Source: Nitrospinota bacterium (GTDB lineage Bacteria > Nitrospinota > Nitrospinia > UBA9942 > JAHJSF01). From it: a DNA stretch of 6,830 nucleotides. The notes under the pieces are model-generated. The model saw nothing but the letters and a program-made list of their open reading frames with translations. It was not told the DNA's origin and made no database searches. How positions within the stretch are numbered: position 1 is the stretch's first letter; every line of letters begins with the position of its first letter. The position numbers and the translations under genes were made by a program. The stretch covers positions 1 through 6,830 of the forward strand of contig JAHJSF010000181.1 of NCBI GenBank assembly GCA_018830405.1, in the 5' to 3' direction. Positions 1 through 6,830 of the stretch are shown here, piece after piece.

Positions 1-512
1 ATAGGGTCTAATCCTGAGGCAGGTTCATCGAGTATTAAGATATCGGGGTCATGGATGACCGCCTGAATAAGCCCTATCTTCTGTATCATCCCCTTGGAGA
101 AATATCTGAGTCGAGTCTTTTTGGCGTCTTCAAGTCCCATCTGAGAAATAAGCCTATTACCTTTCTCAACAATATCCTTCTTCTCCATTCCAAATGTTTG
201 CCCGACGTAGAGAAGCAATTCCTCGGCAGTCAGATATTCGTAAAATATTGGATTTTCGGGGAGGAAACCAACCTTGGCCCGGCTTGAAGGGTCGCTGCTC
301 TTTTTACCTGATATAAATATTTCTCCTGAGGTAGGCCTTATAATCCCAAGGATAGCCTTGATCGTGGTTGACTTACCCGCCCCATTTGGGCCGAGAAAAC
401 CGAATATCTCCCCCTCATCTATATTCAGACTCAGGTCGTCAATGGCCAAGAATTTTTTCTTAAGCCCGGACGAATAGACTTTGGTTAGATTTTTTATCTC
501 TATGGCGTACAT
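1..512 (-). CDS. ABC transporter ATP-binding protein, partial (C-terminus beyond window)
   Basis: This is the ATP-hydrolysing subunit of an ABC-2-type exporter, a cytoplasmic protein expected to pair with the permease encoded at 1446-2258. The first 170 residues are present. Walker A is GPNGAGKST (about residues 41-49). A Q-loop-region segment FLPENP (83-88) carries Glu where many ABC proteins have Gln. The signature motif is the variant FSKGM (138-142), and Walker B plus D-loop read ILILDEPASGLDP (158-170). The ATG at 512 is preceded by an AAGGA ribosome site about 8 nt upstream. A palindromic repeat lies between it and the TPR gene, so coupling is looser than between permease and TPR gene, but the order suggests one operon. 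Sequence type is the NosF/CcmA-like single-domain ATPase family. The link to pili (Myxococcus PilH-like) rests on gene context only. The protein is truncated by the window edge, not by mutation. Confidence 0.93.
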   Translation of the reverse strand, partial: MYAIEIKNLTKVYSSGLKKKFLAIDDLSLNIDEGEIFGFLGPNGAGKSTTIKAILGIIRPTSGEIFISGKKSSDPSSRAKVGFLPENPIFYEYLTAEELLLYVGQTFGMEKKDIVEKGNRLISQMGLEDAKKTRLRYFSKGMIQKIGLIQAVIHDPDILILDEPASGLDP

Positions 513-615: not shown

Positions 616-1449
616 TCATTTCTTAAAAAGAAAGTTGCTGGTTGTCTTTATTCTATCCTCTTTGGCATCGTAGTAAAACTCCCCCCCGTAAGGGTCTTTC
701 GGAATCTCTTCTATTATCCCCCTGACAATAAGCTGATTAAGGGGATGGGGAATATTGTTGTATCTCTTTTTGTAGGCCTGGACGCCTTTATAGAGGGTGT
801 CCGCCCCGGTGTAGGCCTCTATCCTTGTTGTTATATTTTTTCTTATCTCTTCATTGTTAATCTTACTGTAAAGTTCTTCCAAGATGGCAATGGCTACGGG
901 GATTTGATTGGCCCGGTAATGAAACTTTAGGGATAGCTCTATCAGGGCCGGGTTTAATTTGGCCGCTATGTCGAAATATTCGGCTGCCTTGGCATCATCC
1001 CCGAGAAAGTGAAAATGGTTGAACCCTATAAAGAAAGGGATATAAAAGTCCCAGTCTCTATGTTTCATTCCCCGTTCAAGTATCCTATTTGTCTCGGCTA
1101 CCATCCCATCCCAGGGGAGGGTCGCCTGGGCGAAGTAGTAGGAGTCGATGTTATAAGGGTCAAGGGTTGTTGAGGCCTCAAAAGAGTTATACATCCAGGG
1201 CAGGTCTTGCCTTACATTTTGCTCCTGGCGCTCCCCGTAATAGACCATCCCCCTGAAGAGGAGGAGTTTGGATACTATCCCCTTATAGTCAAGAGAGATT
1301 ACCTTCAGCATCCCGACCGGCGGTATATAGGCGATTCTACTCTCAAGCCTATTGTTCCGCCTGTATCGGTCCACCTGAGAGAAGGAGACCGTGTATCCGA
1401 GGATTGATATCAGGATGAGGATAATGGGGAGTTGACGGGATATTCTCAA
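616..1449 (-). CDS. Membrane-anchored TPR-like protein of a pilus-associated ABC transporter operon
   Basis: A 277-residue protein of unknown molecular function. One hydrophobic segment (about residues 8-24) fits an uncleaved signal anchor, with the rest predicted periplasmic or extracytoplasmic. The middle (about 85-200) is helical with TPR-like repeats, for example the stretch around DDAKAAEYFDIAAKLNP (151-167). The C-terminus (about 235-270) has the pattern L-x-x-L-[IV]-x-x-G-x-I-x-x-IP-x-DP-x-GG-x-[FY], a tail seen in some TPR proteins and reminiscent of the DPWG segment of GspG pseudopilins. The start is TTG at 1449. It overlaps the permease stop as TTGA and has a strong AGGAGGGAG ribosome site inside the end of the permease gene, so translational coupling is likely. 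No alternative start occurs before Met47. By position it may correspond to the accessory protein of Myxococcus pilGHI, but I could not compare sequences. Confidence 0.75.
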   Translation of the reverse strand: MRISRQLPIILILISILGYTVSFSQVDRYRRNNRLESRIAYIPPVGMLKVISLDYKGIVSKLLLFRGMVYYGERQEQNVRQDLPWMYNSFEASTTLDPYNIDSYYFAQATLPWDGMVAETNRILERGMKHRDWDFYIPFFIGFNHFHFLGDDAKAAEYFDIAAKLNPALIELSLKFHYRANQIPVAIAILEELYSKINNEEIRKNITTRIEAYTGADTLYKGVQAYKKRYNNIPHPLNQLIVRGIIEEIPKDPYGGEFYYDAKEDRIKTTSNFLFKK

Positions 1450-2258
1450 AGAAACTCCCTCCTCTCAAATATTATCGCAGCGATGGCCATGGCTATTACC
1501 ATGTAGAAGAGGGAGTAGGCCGCCAGATATACCAGGTGGCCGGTATCTATCGGGAGAGAGTATATAGCAGCCGGTTTAAGGTCGAAGGCCTCAAAATTGG
1601 GGAATATATAGTAGGCCAGCTTGGCCAGATATTGAATGGCCAGATTCGGTTTTATATTAGGGGAGGCGCTTTCTATAAATATCCTGACCTCCTCCACCGA
1701 TTCAGCGATCATGTAGAAGGCGATGGCCAGGGAGAGGGGGAGAAAGGCCGATGTGGCCAGACTTGAGAAGAGAAAGAGGATGGCGGCTATAATGGCCAGC
1801 TTAAGGAATATGAATAGAGAGGCCAAGAAATAGTTTCCCCAGCTTATGGTCTGGTTTATCTCCTGGGGAGATAAGACCCCGGCTATACAGACAGACAGCC
1901 CTCCCAGGGCGGATAGGATGGTTACCGAGAAGAGGATAAGGGTTAACAGCCCCAAAAATTTTCCGATTATATACTCCCCCCTCTTTATCGGGAGGGATAT
2001 AACGGTGTAGATACTCCGCCTGTCTATATCCTTAGTTATAAGATTCTGCCCGATGAAGAGGGTCAGAATAAGGGATATGAATGAGGCGGACGAAAGGCTA
2101 AAATCGCAGGCCACCACCGCCACCTGCCTCATCGAGAAGGAGGCCAGGAGTGGAATAAAGAAGAGTAGGAATAGGGCCAGAAGGGAGAGACCGAATAAGG
2201 TCTTATCTCTTATCCCCCCCTTGATGGTTGCGATTGATATTAGAATGATGTTTTTCAT
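1446..2258 (-). CDS. ABC-2 type transporter permease (NosY-like)
   Basis: A 270-residue integral membrane subunit of an ABC exporter, partner of the ATPase at 1-512. About six hydrophobic segments are visible near residues 20-42, 55-74, 100-128, 143-166, 168-186 and 238-264. The cytoplasmic loop after the second segment contains LITKDIDRRSIYTVISLPIKRGEY, typical of ABC-2 permeases; the protein ends FERREFL. The usual length of the family is similar. The ATG at 2258 is chosen because the next upstream in-frame codons reach a stop within about 15 nt. There is no ribosome site at normal distance: AGGAGGG lies about 20 nt upstream, and TATAAT lies only 7-12 nt upstream. Its first ~45 codons are duplicated at 2893-3023. 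It is the first gene after the pilA-C2 terminator. A role like Myxococcus PilI is inferred from the adjacent pilin genes. Confidence 0.88.
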   Translation of the reverse strand: MKNIILISIATIKGGIRDKTLFGLSLLALFLLFFIPLLASFSMRQVAVVACDFSLSSASFISLILTLFIGQNLITKDIDRRSIYTVISLPIKRGEYIIGKFLGLLTLILFSVTILSALGGLSVCIAGVLSPQEINQTISWGNYFLASLFIFLKLAIIAAILFLFSSLATSAFLPLSLAIAFYMIAESVEEVRIFIESASPNIKPNLAIQYLAKLAYYIFPNFEAFDLKPAAIYSLPIDTGHLVYLAAYSLFYMVIAMAIAAIIFERREFL

Positions 2259-2264
2259 GGCGCC

Positions 2265-2270
2265 ATTATA
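2265..2270 (-). promoter_or_regulatory. Possible -10 box for the permease operon
   Basis: On the minus strand TATAAT ends 6 nt before the permease ATG, and the same box at the same distance is kept in the duplicated copy at 3030-3035. If used, the mRNA would be almost leaderless, which would agree with the missing ribosome site. No convincing -35 hexamer is visible at 16-18 bp, so this is weak. Confidence 0.25.
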
Positions 2271-2275
2271 TCATC

Positions 2276-2355
2276 AAATCCCTCCTGACCTCCCTTTTCT
2301 AAAGGGAGGGAATTAAGCCTACACCCCCCGGTCTCCCCCTTTGTTAAGGGGGAAT
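2276..2355. repeat. Palindromic repeat pair, family R2, copy a
   Basis: Two short hairpins in tandem: CTCCCTTT...AAAGGGAG (about 2290-2309) and CCCCCTTTGTTAAGGGGG (about 2335-2352), linked by a C-rich spacer. The arrangement recurs at about 3054-3130 (inside the duplicated unit) and at 4328-4403. It lies between the pilA-C2 terminator and the permease gene. Confidence 0.6.
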
Positions 2356-2363
2356 TCTTGAAT

Positions 2364-2396
2364 AAAAAAAGGGGGTGGAGATAAAATCCCCACCCC
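2364..2396 (-). terminator. Rho-independent terminator after pilA-C2
   Basis: On the minus strand an 11-bp stem (GGGGTGGGGAT pairing with ATCTCCACCCC, one G-U pair) with a TTT loop is followed by C and seven T residues. It sits 40 nt past the pilA-C2 stop codon and should separate the pilin transcript from the ABC operon. Confidence 0.88.
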
Positions 2397-2436
2397 ACGA
2401 TCAAAAAGACCTACAGCTTTAAGCCACTACTGTCTA

Positions 2437-2832
2437 TTACTGAACGGTATAAGCAGCATTAAGACCTCCTCCCGGGGTTGCTGTAGGGACATAGGCATCG
2501 GCCAGCGTCCCCCAGGAGCCTGGTGTTACAGTAGCGCTGTAGGGGCTACCCCCACTACTGTGCATAACATACTGACTGTTTCCCCTTTTGTGCTGGGTAA
2601 CTGAAGCAAAATGATCCCCGCCGTTACTGGTGTGGTAGGCCACCTGGACGCCGGCGCTTGGAATAAAGTATCCAGCATTCGACCCGATACCGAGGTCATT
2701 CGCTACTACAGTGAGTGCTCCCCCAAAAGTACCATCAGTGCCGCGATGAGCAGCCGCGGCCTCCGCCTTGCCTACCTCGGCGAACAGGGAGATCATGGCT
2801 ACCATTATTAATAAATTAAATATCTTAGACAT
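2437..2832 (-). CDS. Secreted pilin head-domain protein PilA-C2 (second, diverged paralogue)
   Basis: A 131-residue protein clearly paralogous to the product of 3219-3617. Shared positions include the MSKI start, the SLFA core of the signal peptide, FGxxLTV, PSAGVxVAxHT, TQHxxGxxQY, HSxGGSxY, GxW and the C-terminal AYT-x-Q. A Sec signal peptide (about residues 1-25, cleavage near KAEA|AA) is followed by a beta-rich, Gly/Ala/Ser/Thr-rich domain without cysteine, as in the C-terminal head of type IVa pilins. I chose ATG 2832, not the longer TTG start at 2889, because the longer N-terminus is out-of-frame translation of a pilA-N remnant. The ribosome site (GAGG, 4 nt from ATG) is weaker than that of its sister gene. 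There is no intact pilA-N directly upstream. It is probably an alternative subunit, or a copy drifting toward decay; the open frame and intact signal peptide argue against a dead gene. Confidence 0.75.
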   Translation of the reverse strand: MSKIFNLLIMVAMISLFAEVGKAEAAAAHRGTDGTFGGALTVVANDLGIGSNAGYFIPSAGVQVAYHTSNGGDHFASVTQHKRGNSQYVMHSSGGSPYSATVTPGSWGTLADAYVPTATPGGGLNAAYTVQ

Positions 2833-2844
2833 CTTGCCTCGCCA

Positions 2845-2898
2845 CGTTATAAGCCTTAACACGATAGGTGCTGAACTGAGGTATGGCAATAGTCGCTA
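2845..2898 (-). pseudogene. Internal fragment of pilA-N left by tandem duplication
   Basis: This stretch matches 3693-3746 inside pilA-N with few substitutions and encodes, in the pilA-N frame, IAIPQFSTYRVKAYN. The promoter, leader peptide and N-terminal half are missing. On the other side the 3' end has been lost in a deletion of about 63 bp that brings the fragment to 13 nt from the pilA-C2 start. It is too short to be a pilin. Confidence 0.85.
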
Positions 2899-3023
2899 CC
2901 TGCCGCATCGAGAAGGAGGATAAATAGTAAAAGAAACAGGGCCAGAATGGAAAGGCCGAATAAGGTCTTATCTCTTATTCCCCCCTTGATGGTTGCGATT
3001 GATATTAGAAGAATATTTTTCAT
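2893..3023 (-). pseudogene. 5' fragment of the ABC permease gene (duplication remnant)
   Basis: The minus-strand sequence from ATG 3023 repeats the first ~45 codons of the permease at 2258: MKNILLISIATIKGGIRDKT against MKNIILISIATIKGGIRDKT. Substitutions have accumulated, and an 11-bp deletion (arms 123 versus 112 bp between the ATG and the common CATCGA) shifts the frame. It ends at the junction with the pilA-N fragment at about 2893-2898. The shifted frame stays open through the junction to a stop at 2856-2858, giving a chimeric 55-codon ORF rich in Leu/Ile. No evidence shows whether it is translated. Confidence 0.85.
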
Positions 3024-3150
3024 GCCGTCATTATATCATCAAAATATCATCAAATCCCTCCTGACCTCCCTTTTCTAAAGGGAGGGAATTAAGCTTACAC
3101 CCCCCTGTCTCCCCCTTTACCAAAGGGGAGTGGGAGGGAATTGTTGAATT

Positions 3151-3183
3151 AAAAAGGGGATGTGAGACTAAACTCCCACCCCC
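3151..3183 (-). terminator. Rho-independent terminator after pilA-C1
   Basis: On the minus strand GGGGGTGGGAG pairs with CTCACATCCCC (one mismatch, one G-U pair), followed by TTTTT. It is the duplicated, slightly decayed counterpart of the terminator at 2364-2396 and begins 35 nt past the pilA-C1 stop. Confidence 0.78.
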
Positions 3184-3218
3184 ATCATTAAAGAGATTTG
3201 ATTATACTCTTTAACCCA

Positions 3219-3617
3219 CTATTGAGCGGTATAAGCGGTAAAATCTGTAGCAGGAACCGCTGTTGCCGCGGTGGTATCCAGAGTCGTCATCCAAGTGCCT
3301 ACCGTTGTAACGGCAATACCGTAGAGAGACCCACCGTTACTATGAAGGCCATACTGTATGGTTCCCTTATTGTGCTGAGTCTCCACATGGAAATATGCCC
3401 CACTGGCATCAGTGTGAAACGCCACCTTTACACCGGCACTCGGGGTGAAGGTTCCCGCAGTTGCCGGTAAGCCGGCACCAAAGGTGTCCACGGCCACAGT
3501 GAGTGTGTCACCGAAACCGCCACCAACATTATGAATAACAGCAGCATCTGCATTCCCTATCCCTGCAAAGAGGGAGACTACCGCTATTATCGTTAATAAA
3601 CGTAAAATCTTAGACAT
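3219..3617 (-). CDS. Secreted pilin head-domain protein PilA-C1 of a split type IVa pilin
   Basis: A 132-residue exported protein, proposed to be the globular C-terminal half of the major pilin, encoded separately from its N-terminal helix. An N-terminal Sec signal peptide (MSKILRLLTIIAVVSLFAGI, cleavage near NADA|AV) replaces the usual pilin helix; no prepilin KGFTLIE motif is present. The remainder (about 27-132) is Gly/Ala/Thr-rich, predicted beta, without cysteine. It carries patterns seen in heads of deltaproteobacterial long pilins, such as VETQHNKGTIQYGLHSNGG. The ATG at 3617 has GGGAGG 9 nt upstream and follows the pilA-N stop by only 16 nt, so the two are co-transcribed. The arrangement matches Geobacter PilA-N/PilA-C (GSU1496/GSU1497), where the two chains assemble together. 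Homology to GSU1497 is inferred from architecture and could not be tested by alignment. Confidence 0.78.
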   Translation of the reverse strand: MSKILRLLTIIAVVSLFAGIGNADAAVIHNVGGGFGDTLTVAVDTFGAGLPATAGTFTPSAGVKVAFHTDASGAYFHVETQHNKGTIQYGLHSNGGSLYGIAVTTVGTWMTTLDTTAATAVPATDFTAYTAQ

Positions 3618-3633
3618 CTTTCATTACCTCCCT

Positions 3634-3822
3634 TTATATTGAATAACCTGTTAATGTTGTCAACAGGTTCTTGGCATCCGCCTGGGCTGCCGCGTTATAA
3701 GCTTTAACACGATAGGTGCTGAACTGAGGTATGGCGATAGCCGCCAATATACCTATGATTGCTACAACTATCAAAAGCTCGATCAATGTAAAACCCTTGT
3801 CATTATCTAATCTTTTAAACAT
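3634..3822 (-). CDS. pilA: Type IVa major pilin, short N-terminal subunit (PilA-N)
   Basis: A 62-residue prepilin. The leader MFKRLDNDKG is cut by the prepilin peptidase PilD before Phe, which is then N-methylated. The mature chain of 52 residues begins FTLIELLIVVAIIGILAAIA, with the conserved Glu5, and continues IPQFSTYRVKAYN, very close to Geobacter sulfurreducens PilA as I remember it. It stops soon after the helix at LTGYSI, so it has no globular head; the head is supplied by the next gene. ATG 3822 is chosen over an upstream in-frame TTG at 3846, because the AGGGAGGTGG ribosome site (3831-3840) lies 8 nt before this ATG and inside the longer version. Transcription probably starts near 3976 from a sigma-54 promoter. 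Mature aromatic residues are F1, F24, Y27, Y32 and Y50. Confidence 0.93.
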   Translation of the reverse strand: MFKRLDNDKGFTLIELLIVVAIIGILAAIAIPQFSTYRVKAYNAAAQADAKNLLTTLTGYSI

Positions 3823-3873
3823 CTGTCTCTCCACCTCCCTTCGCAAGTTTAGTTTGAAGATTTACCGATTCTC

Positions 3874-3949
3874 TGTCATTCCCGCGAAGGCGGGAATCCA
3901 GAAGTCTTTTAAAGAAAAATGGATTCCCCGATCAAGTCGGGGAATGACA
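3874..3949. repeat. Palindromic repeat element, family R3 (ATTCCC type), copy a, in the pilA leader
   Basis: A 76-bp element with 10-bp terminal inverted repeats TGTCATTCCC / GGGAATGACA and two internal hairpins: ATTCCCGC-GAAG-GCGGGAAT (3878-3897) and ATTCCCCGA-TCAAG-TCGGGGAAT (3923-3945). The whole unit is repeated at 4172-4257. It resembles the widespread ATTCCC/GGGAAT intergenic repeats and MITE-like elements. It lies inside the predicted 5' untranslated region of pilA-N. Confidence 0.85.
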
Positions 3950-3954
3950 ATTTG

Positions 3955-3974
3955 GAGACCTTTTTAAAGGTCTC
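3955..3974 (-). promoter_or_regulatory. Hairpin at predicted 5' end of the pilA mRNA
   Basis: A perfect 9-bp inverted repeat, GAGACCTTT / AAAGGTCTC with a 2-nt centre. It begins about 2 nt after the transcription start predicted from the sigma-54 promoter. No T-run follows on either strand, so it is not a terminator. Possible roles are protection of the 5' end or a protein-binding operator (inference). Confidence 0.5.
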
Positions 3975-3986
3975 AACTAGATAGTA

Positions 3987-4002
3987 TGCAACCCCCATGC
4001 CA
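3987..4002 (-). promoter_or_regulatory. Sigma-54 (RpoN) promoter of pilA
   Basis: On the minus strand TGGCATG-GGGG-TTGCA matches the -24/-12 consensus TGGCACG-N4-TTGCW, with the invariant GG and GC exactly 12 bp apart. The predicted start is near 3976, giving a leader of about 154 nt before the pilA-N ATG. RpoN plus the response regulator PilR is the known control of pilA in Pseudomonas and Geobacter, which supports the assignment. The neighbouring palindrome at 4115-4129 would be the activator site. Confidence 0.82.
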
Positions 4003-4171: not shown

Positions 4172-4257
4172 CGTCATTCCCCAGCTTGACTGGGGAATCC
4201 AGAACAGACATTGCAACCCTTCCAGACTGGATTCCCCGATTAAATCGGGGAATGACA
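4172..4257. repeat. Palindromic repeat element, family R3, copy b
   Basis: An 86-bp element ended by CGTCATTCCCC / GGGGAATGACA (one mismatch) with hairpins ATTCCCCAG...CTGGGGAAT (4177-4197) and ATTCCCCGATTAAATCGGGGAAT. It has the same architecture as 3874-3949, with a different spacer between hairpins. Confidence 0.85.
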
Positions 4258-4327: not shown

Positions 4328-4403
4328 ATCTCCCCTGACCCCTCTTTGCCAAAGAGGGGGACTCTAATATATTCCCCCTTAACAAAGGGGGACTAAGGGG
4401 GTT
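4328..4403. repeat. Palindromic repeat pair, family R2, copy c
   Basis: Two neighbouring hairpins, CCCTCTTTGCCAAAGAGGG and CCCCCTTAACAAAGGGGG, with a short A/T-rich spacer. It has the same design as the pairs upstream of the permease gene (2276-2355) and its duplicate, but is not part of the tandem duplication. Confidence 0.65.
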
Positions 4404-4413
4404 GTTTAGAAAA

Positions 4414-4563: not shown

Positions 4564-6830
<2,267 letters not shown>

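Follow-up and report, generated by a model that had tools for sequence, protein, structure and literature searches.

A split type IV pilin locus in a Nitrospinota genome contains two head-to-tail units, and these probably derive from two pilA-N / pilA-C / permease loci that had already diverged as working genes before they were joined, with the half-genes at the join decaying afterwards. We give this reading a probability of roughly 0.6. The initial annotation had read the same arrangement as a single microhomology-mediated tandem duplication; the head-to-tail structure, the short homology, the gene identities and the single-copy relatives all stand, but the history of duplication followed by decay conflicts with the pattern of coding and silent changes in the truncated permease copy.

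Organization of the pilin locus

The window, a stretch of 6,830 nucleotides, is one whole 6.8-kb contig of a 1.42-Mb draft genome (185 contigs, 87% complete) from what we take to be a groundwater-type bacterium. The order on the minus strand is pilA-N, pilA-C_A, terminator, R2 repeat and permease' fragment, joined to pilA-N' fragment, pilA-C_B, terminator, R2 repeat, permease, a 277-aa gene and an ABC ATPase. The features are as follows, in the direction of transcription.

3987..4002, minus strand: sigma-54-type promoter match TGGCATGGGGGTTGCA, 5' of pilA-N (exact to TGGCAYN5TTGCW; 0.23 expected in the window even with one mismatch)
3634..3822, minus strand: pilA-N, intact, 62 aa, split type IV pilin, geopilin domain 1 (N_methyl 6e-11; structure matches 7tgg 3e-22, 9egp_A 2e-21, 6vk9/2m7g 1e-18)
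3219..3617, minus strand: pilA-C_A, 132 aa, signal-like N terminus, geopilin domain 2-like (weak family-profile match, 9egp_B)
3156..3183, minus strand: terminator-like hairpin 3' of pilA-C_A, followed by UUUUU (z -3.2 for the 79-nt stretch)
3044..3129, minus strand: R2 interspersed repeat, unit A (self-comparison)
3030..3038, minus strand: extended -10 promoter match TGATATAAT, unit A, now 5' of permease', pilA-N' and pilA-C_B (motif search)
2893..3023, minus strand: permease' fragment, about 47 first codons with an 11-bp deletion, now a 55-codon ORF ending at 2856 (alignment with intact permease)
2893..2898, unstranded: junction TCGCTA, in frame; CCGCCA in both parents at 2117-2122 and 3741-3746 (sequence comparison)
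2841..2892, minus strand: pilA-N' fragment, final 63 bp including stop and ribosome site deleted (alignment with pilA-N)
2437..2832, minus strand: pilA-C_B, intact, 131 aa, 49% identity with pilA-C_A (ORF and pairwise comparison)
2372..2396, minus strand: terminator 3' of pilA-C_B (hairpin analysis)
2268..2353, minus strand: R2 interspersed repeat, unit B (self-comparison)
2265..2273, minus strand: extended -10 promoter match TGATATAAT of the intact permease (motif search)
1446..2258, minus strand: ABC-2 type permease, intact, 270 aa (ABC2_membrane_2 1e-8)
616..1449, minus strand: next operon gene, 277 aa, no Pfam match (similar gene 3' of the permease in relatives)
3..512, minus strand: ABC transporter ATPase, truncated at the window end (ABC_tran 2e-29)

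PilA-N is a prepilin-type N-terminal pilin that lacks a globular domain, as in a split geopilin locus. The locus resembles the split geopilin PilA-N/PilA-C of Geobacter (GSU1496/GSU1497; PDB 6vk9, 9egp), where, as here, a short N-terminal pilin gene lies immediately before a separate one, whose product has a signal-like N terminus and a beta-rich domain. The match of the N part is strong (3e-22 to 1e-18), and the sigma-54-type promoter match 5' of pilA-N is a further point of likeness. The similarity of the Geobacter C-domain structure to PilA-C is weak; geopilin domain 2 (9egp_B) was the best solved-structure match of the pilA-C family profile, at E 0.18-0.36. The position of pilA-C and its H-x-x-G-x-x-x-Y pattern are consistent with geopilin domain 2, a weak match at the sequence level. 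Unlike the Geobacter locus, this one has a single N-domain gene and two C-domain genes that are divergent. The confidence of an AlphaFold model of PilA-C (pLDDT 45) was too low to support a fold search; a Pfam "DDR" match of pilA-C_B fell under the family cut-off and was disregarded. Three T2SSE matches above the cut-off in the host genome provide candidates for the assembly ATPase, a family to which type II secretion ATPases belong as well. The reading frames of both pilA-C genes are open, all indels between pilA-C_A and pilA-C_B are in-frame, and dN/dS between them is 0.36. No further permease or pilA-C copies were found elsewhere in the 87%-complete host draft.

The window contained only two TGNTATAAT matches (0.34 expected), which are the two unit copies just 5' of both permease starts. 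The extended -10 matches thus place pilA-C_B behind a copied permease promoter, after a terminator, and pilA-C_B may use this promoter. Judging from these motifs, its expression is probably separate from that of the sigma-54-type pilA-N unit.

Elsewhere in the window, a single 689-aa ORF (4564-6633, minus strand) encodes a BioD-BioA fusion, in which a class III aminotransferase is linked to a domain of the dethiobiotin-synthetase type (AAA_26), and adjoins another partial ORF. R2 (2268-2353, 3044-3129 and 4371-4405) is a member of a family of interspersed repeats, of which the genome has dozens of partial copies. Short palindromic intergenic repeats recur at 3857-3973, 4173-4256 and 534-600/4410-4560 (GTCATTCCCCGA..TCGGGGAATGAC; CTCCCCTCCTT..AAGGAGGGG). 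An Rfam scan returned nothing at gathering score; one of the short palindromic repeats had a sub-threshold match to FtrB.

The two units and their junction

Self-comparison of the window gave direct repeats in a fixed order: 2118-2143/2894-2919, 2146-2278/2911-3043 (85% identity), 2268-2353/3044-3129 (93%), 2746-2835/3531-3620 (71%) and 2841-2896/3689-3744 (93%). The alignment of 2117-2892 with 2893-3740 spans the units from end to end. Outside pilA-C it scored 279, whereas the best of 500 shuffles reached 27; the scores for the pilA-N part and for pilA-C were 89 and 59, with shuffle maxima of 20 and 27, respectively. The fragment order occurring twice in tandem, as the initial annotation had proposed, is thereby borne out, and the pairwise alignment that it had called for shows extended similarity outside pilA-C as well. 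The 11-bp and approximately 63-bp deletions that it had postulated both appear as gaps, the former in permease' and the latter (63 bp) in pilA-N'. In addition, unit A has an 11-bp tandem duplication (TTTGATGATAT) 5' of permease', which had gone unmentioned. The head-to-tail units, the novel joint and the parental sequence on either side together have the structure of a tandem duplication.

An internal pilA-N sequence abuts an internal permease sequence at 2893-2898, where TCGCTA replaces the parental CCGCCA, just as had been described. Shared runs of at least 6 bp occur at 0.14% of random breakpoint pairs between permease and pilA-N, and the 6 bp found here correspond to an illegitimate join at a few base pairs of homology. 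Permease and pilA-N are in identical codon phase at the join, a point not remarked on before, so the original fusion product was in frame (SFSMRQVA-TIAIPQFSTYRVKAYN).

The closest relatives by sequence are Nitrospinota/Nitrospinae genomes. In the order-level comparison set of seven genomes, pilA-C was present in four, the host included; a contig scan for closer relatives returned only those Nitrospinota MAGs and one distant Deltaproteobacterium. Relatives with pilA-N, one pilA-C and then the permease had been predicted, and genomes G003 (JACRGN010000228.1) and G005 (MHDO01000129.1) have this order, with small genes inserted between the single pilA-C and the permease. In G004 the permease is followed by a gene like the 277-aa gene and by an ATPase. 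Small nucleotidyltransferase-like genes lie 3' of pilA-C in the relatives (L024 4502-5903, L021 2446-2868), in L024 between pilA-C and the permease and with a partner ORF; they look like a toxin-antitoxin type module.

Divergence of the units and its timing

Identity along the units was 94% for pilA-N', 62% for pilA-C, 63% for the terminator spacer, 91% for R2 with its upstream region and 87% for permease'. The divergence is thus highly uneven, from 6% to 38% within one unit, which the initial annotation had not noted. It had called the junction datable; we discarded dating by total divergence because of this range. Between pilA-C_A and pilA-C_B, dS was 1.16 and dN 0.42, with 24 of 39 fourfold sites changed. 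Positive selection as the sole cause of the pilA-C divergence was rejected, since divergence is strong at silent sites, too, and in the terminator spacer, which is not translated. GC3 was 0.45 in pilA-C_A and 0.51 in pilA-C_B, values that are uninformative about a foreign origin. In R2 and the upstream region next to it, 8 of 94 sites differ, a far lower share than at silent sites; we assume that constraint on R2 and the promoter accounts for their similarity.

For the first 33 codons of permease' compared with permease, dS was 0.55 and dN 0.056. When the codons past the deletion are included (41 codons), there are 12 silent and 4 coding changes, none of them at second codon positions; pilA-N' and pilA-N differ by 2 silent changes and 1 coding change. 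Had permease' drifted since the copies separated, about 9 to 10 of its 16 changes should be coding; the observed number has a probability of 0.004-0.01 in simulations conditional on the number of changes, and of 0.0005-0.0085 when permease' and pilA-N' are taken together. A permease' copy that was identical at birth and free thereafter should show half or more of the neutral divergence at its coding sites. With the unit's silent or terminator divergence as the yardstick, at least 20 coding differences are expected in permease' and 4 were seen (P ~1e-6); P is still about 0.01 if only a quarter of the change falls on the permease' branch. The 95% upper bound for unconstrained divergence in permease' is 0.10, compared to 0.5-1.2 at neutral sites. 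The few coding relative to silent changes imply that most of the differences predate the join, unless the fusion peptide itself was conserved. Most of the divergence between units A and B thus probably predates the join.

As a control, we used the single-copy orthologues from G003 and G005, which are two species in one genus. Their pilA-C genes share 44% amino acid identity (dS 0.82), and the N-termini of their permeases 93% (dS 0.83, dN/dS 0.09). The corresponding values for units A and B are 49% (dS 1.16) and 91% (dS 0.55, dN/dS 0.10). The divergence profile of the units equals that of orthologues from two species, as might be the case for donor DNA from another lineage with long homology on one side; the units look like orthologues of one locus in two congeneric species. 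Between relatives, dN/dS of pilA-C is 0.5-1.1, indicating fast evolution generally. For G005 and G004 it is 1.1 in pilA-C and 0.19 in pilA-N. For this pair, which belongs to different genera (L024 3770-4165 and L021 1498-1893), the silent divergence of pilA-C (0.29) is lower than that of the neighboring pilA-N (0.53); together with the dN/dS of 1.1, this hints at exchange or diversifying selection.

We weighed three other histories against the joining of diverged loci. In one, a single tandem duplication within the genome made pilA-C_B, and the copies then diverged, pilA-C fastest as a surface protein, while the half-genes decayed. The structure, the short homology and the single-copy relatives are all compatible with it, and pilA-C evolves fast anyway. 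A truncated copy should then diverge free of coding constraint, and the 12 silent to 4 coding changes in permease' (P ~0.004-0.01, or ~1e-6 by calibration) count against the initial annotation's claim that the second pilA-C was born in this way. Silent sites differ by 38-59%, but the coding sites of the supposedly free permease' by 4%. Fast protein evolution leaves unexplained why pilA-C differs at 59% of silent sites and the terminator spacer at 37%, beside a pilA-N' with 94% identity; gene conversion from the intact gene is no remedy, as it removes silent and coding changes alike. We therefore regard a simple duplication as unlikely, with the caveat that the permease' comparison covers only 41 codons and that a long-conserved fusion peptide would give the same pattern.

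That caveat leads to the idea that selection maintained the in-frame fusion of permease' and pilA-N', either as a working gene or as a translated leader coupled to pilA-C_B, through most of the period after a simple duplication, which would explain the silent-only changes. Both frames agree at the join, a 55-codon ORF that ends 23 bp 5' of the pilA-C_B start codon still includes the first 33 codons, and the upstream promoter match is retained. The silent-only pattern, however, extends to the codons past the 11-bp frameshift and to those of pilA-N', which are out of frame with the start; a one-helix permease stub with a pilin tail has no known use, and one third of joins are in frame by chance. 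A selected fusion is thus more doubtful still than a simple duplication. It is very improbable that the arrangement is an artefact of metagenome assembly, in which sequences of two strains were misjoined. The draft is in 185 contigs, of which the window is one in its entirety, and a 51-bp exact match in R2, common to both units, could let a short k-mer assembler switch strains there; but the junction lies on no long exact match and is beyond such switching, and both flanking half-genes carry deletions, as in dead gene ends of a real chromosome.

Under the preferred reading, the diverged loci would have been joined head to tail at 6 bp common to both (coding strand: TGGCGG), with codon ~47 of the permease from one locus fused in frame to codon ~30 of the pilA-N from the other. 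The 11-bp and 63-bp deletions in the half-genes would have followed only after the join, and the outcome would be a single PilA-N with two different PilA-C partners. The likeliest route would be recombination of the resident locus with incoming DNA from a sister lineage, in which one side was exchanged by homology and the other was joined illegitimately. An equal trace would result if a single genome had carried two older full copies of the operon and a microhomology deletion had occurred between them. The sister-lineage route would need fewer lost genes; for the deletion route, there is no other trace of older operon copies in the host genome.

Known systems and implications for split pilins

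Recombination that ends in an illegitimate join at short homology is a described class of events (PMC6382021). As in homology-facilitated illegitimate recombination, where donor and recipient share 3-10 bp at the illegitimate join, the homology here is short; that process is known from transformation experiments, whereas ours is a reconstruction from sequence. ComEC (PF03772) had no match in the 87%-complete host draft, so DNA uptake by transformation is unsupported.

An origin by duplication and degeneration has been proposed for split geopilins (PMC5174107). In Pelobacter carbinolicus the unsplit geopilin gene is tandemly duplicated, and its domain 2 has been termed variable (PMC3543383). 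The geopilin gene thus occurs twice in tandem there, but both N domains are kept, whereas here the second N domain was destroyed and only domain 2 is doubled. A limited literature search returned no account of a locus in which PilA-C is doubled and PilA-N single.

The gene layout suggests that one PilA-N core may be able to carry either of two separately controlled surface domains. More tentatively, the host may have gained a second surface domain, divergent at the species level, in one step from the pilin locus of a sister species by an illegitimate join; one PilA-N core and a ready-made promoter could then give pili with mixed or switchable PilA-C. A tandem pair of textbook appearance is here better explained by the joining of two diverged loci, on the strength of silent and coding changes in a dead half-gene, and the same comparison is applicable to other "diverged tandem duplicates". 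For split pilins, the locus suggests that the outer PilA-C evolves fast and can double while the filament core PilA-N stays single.
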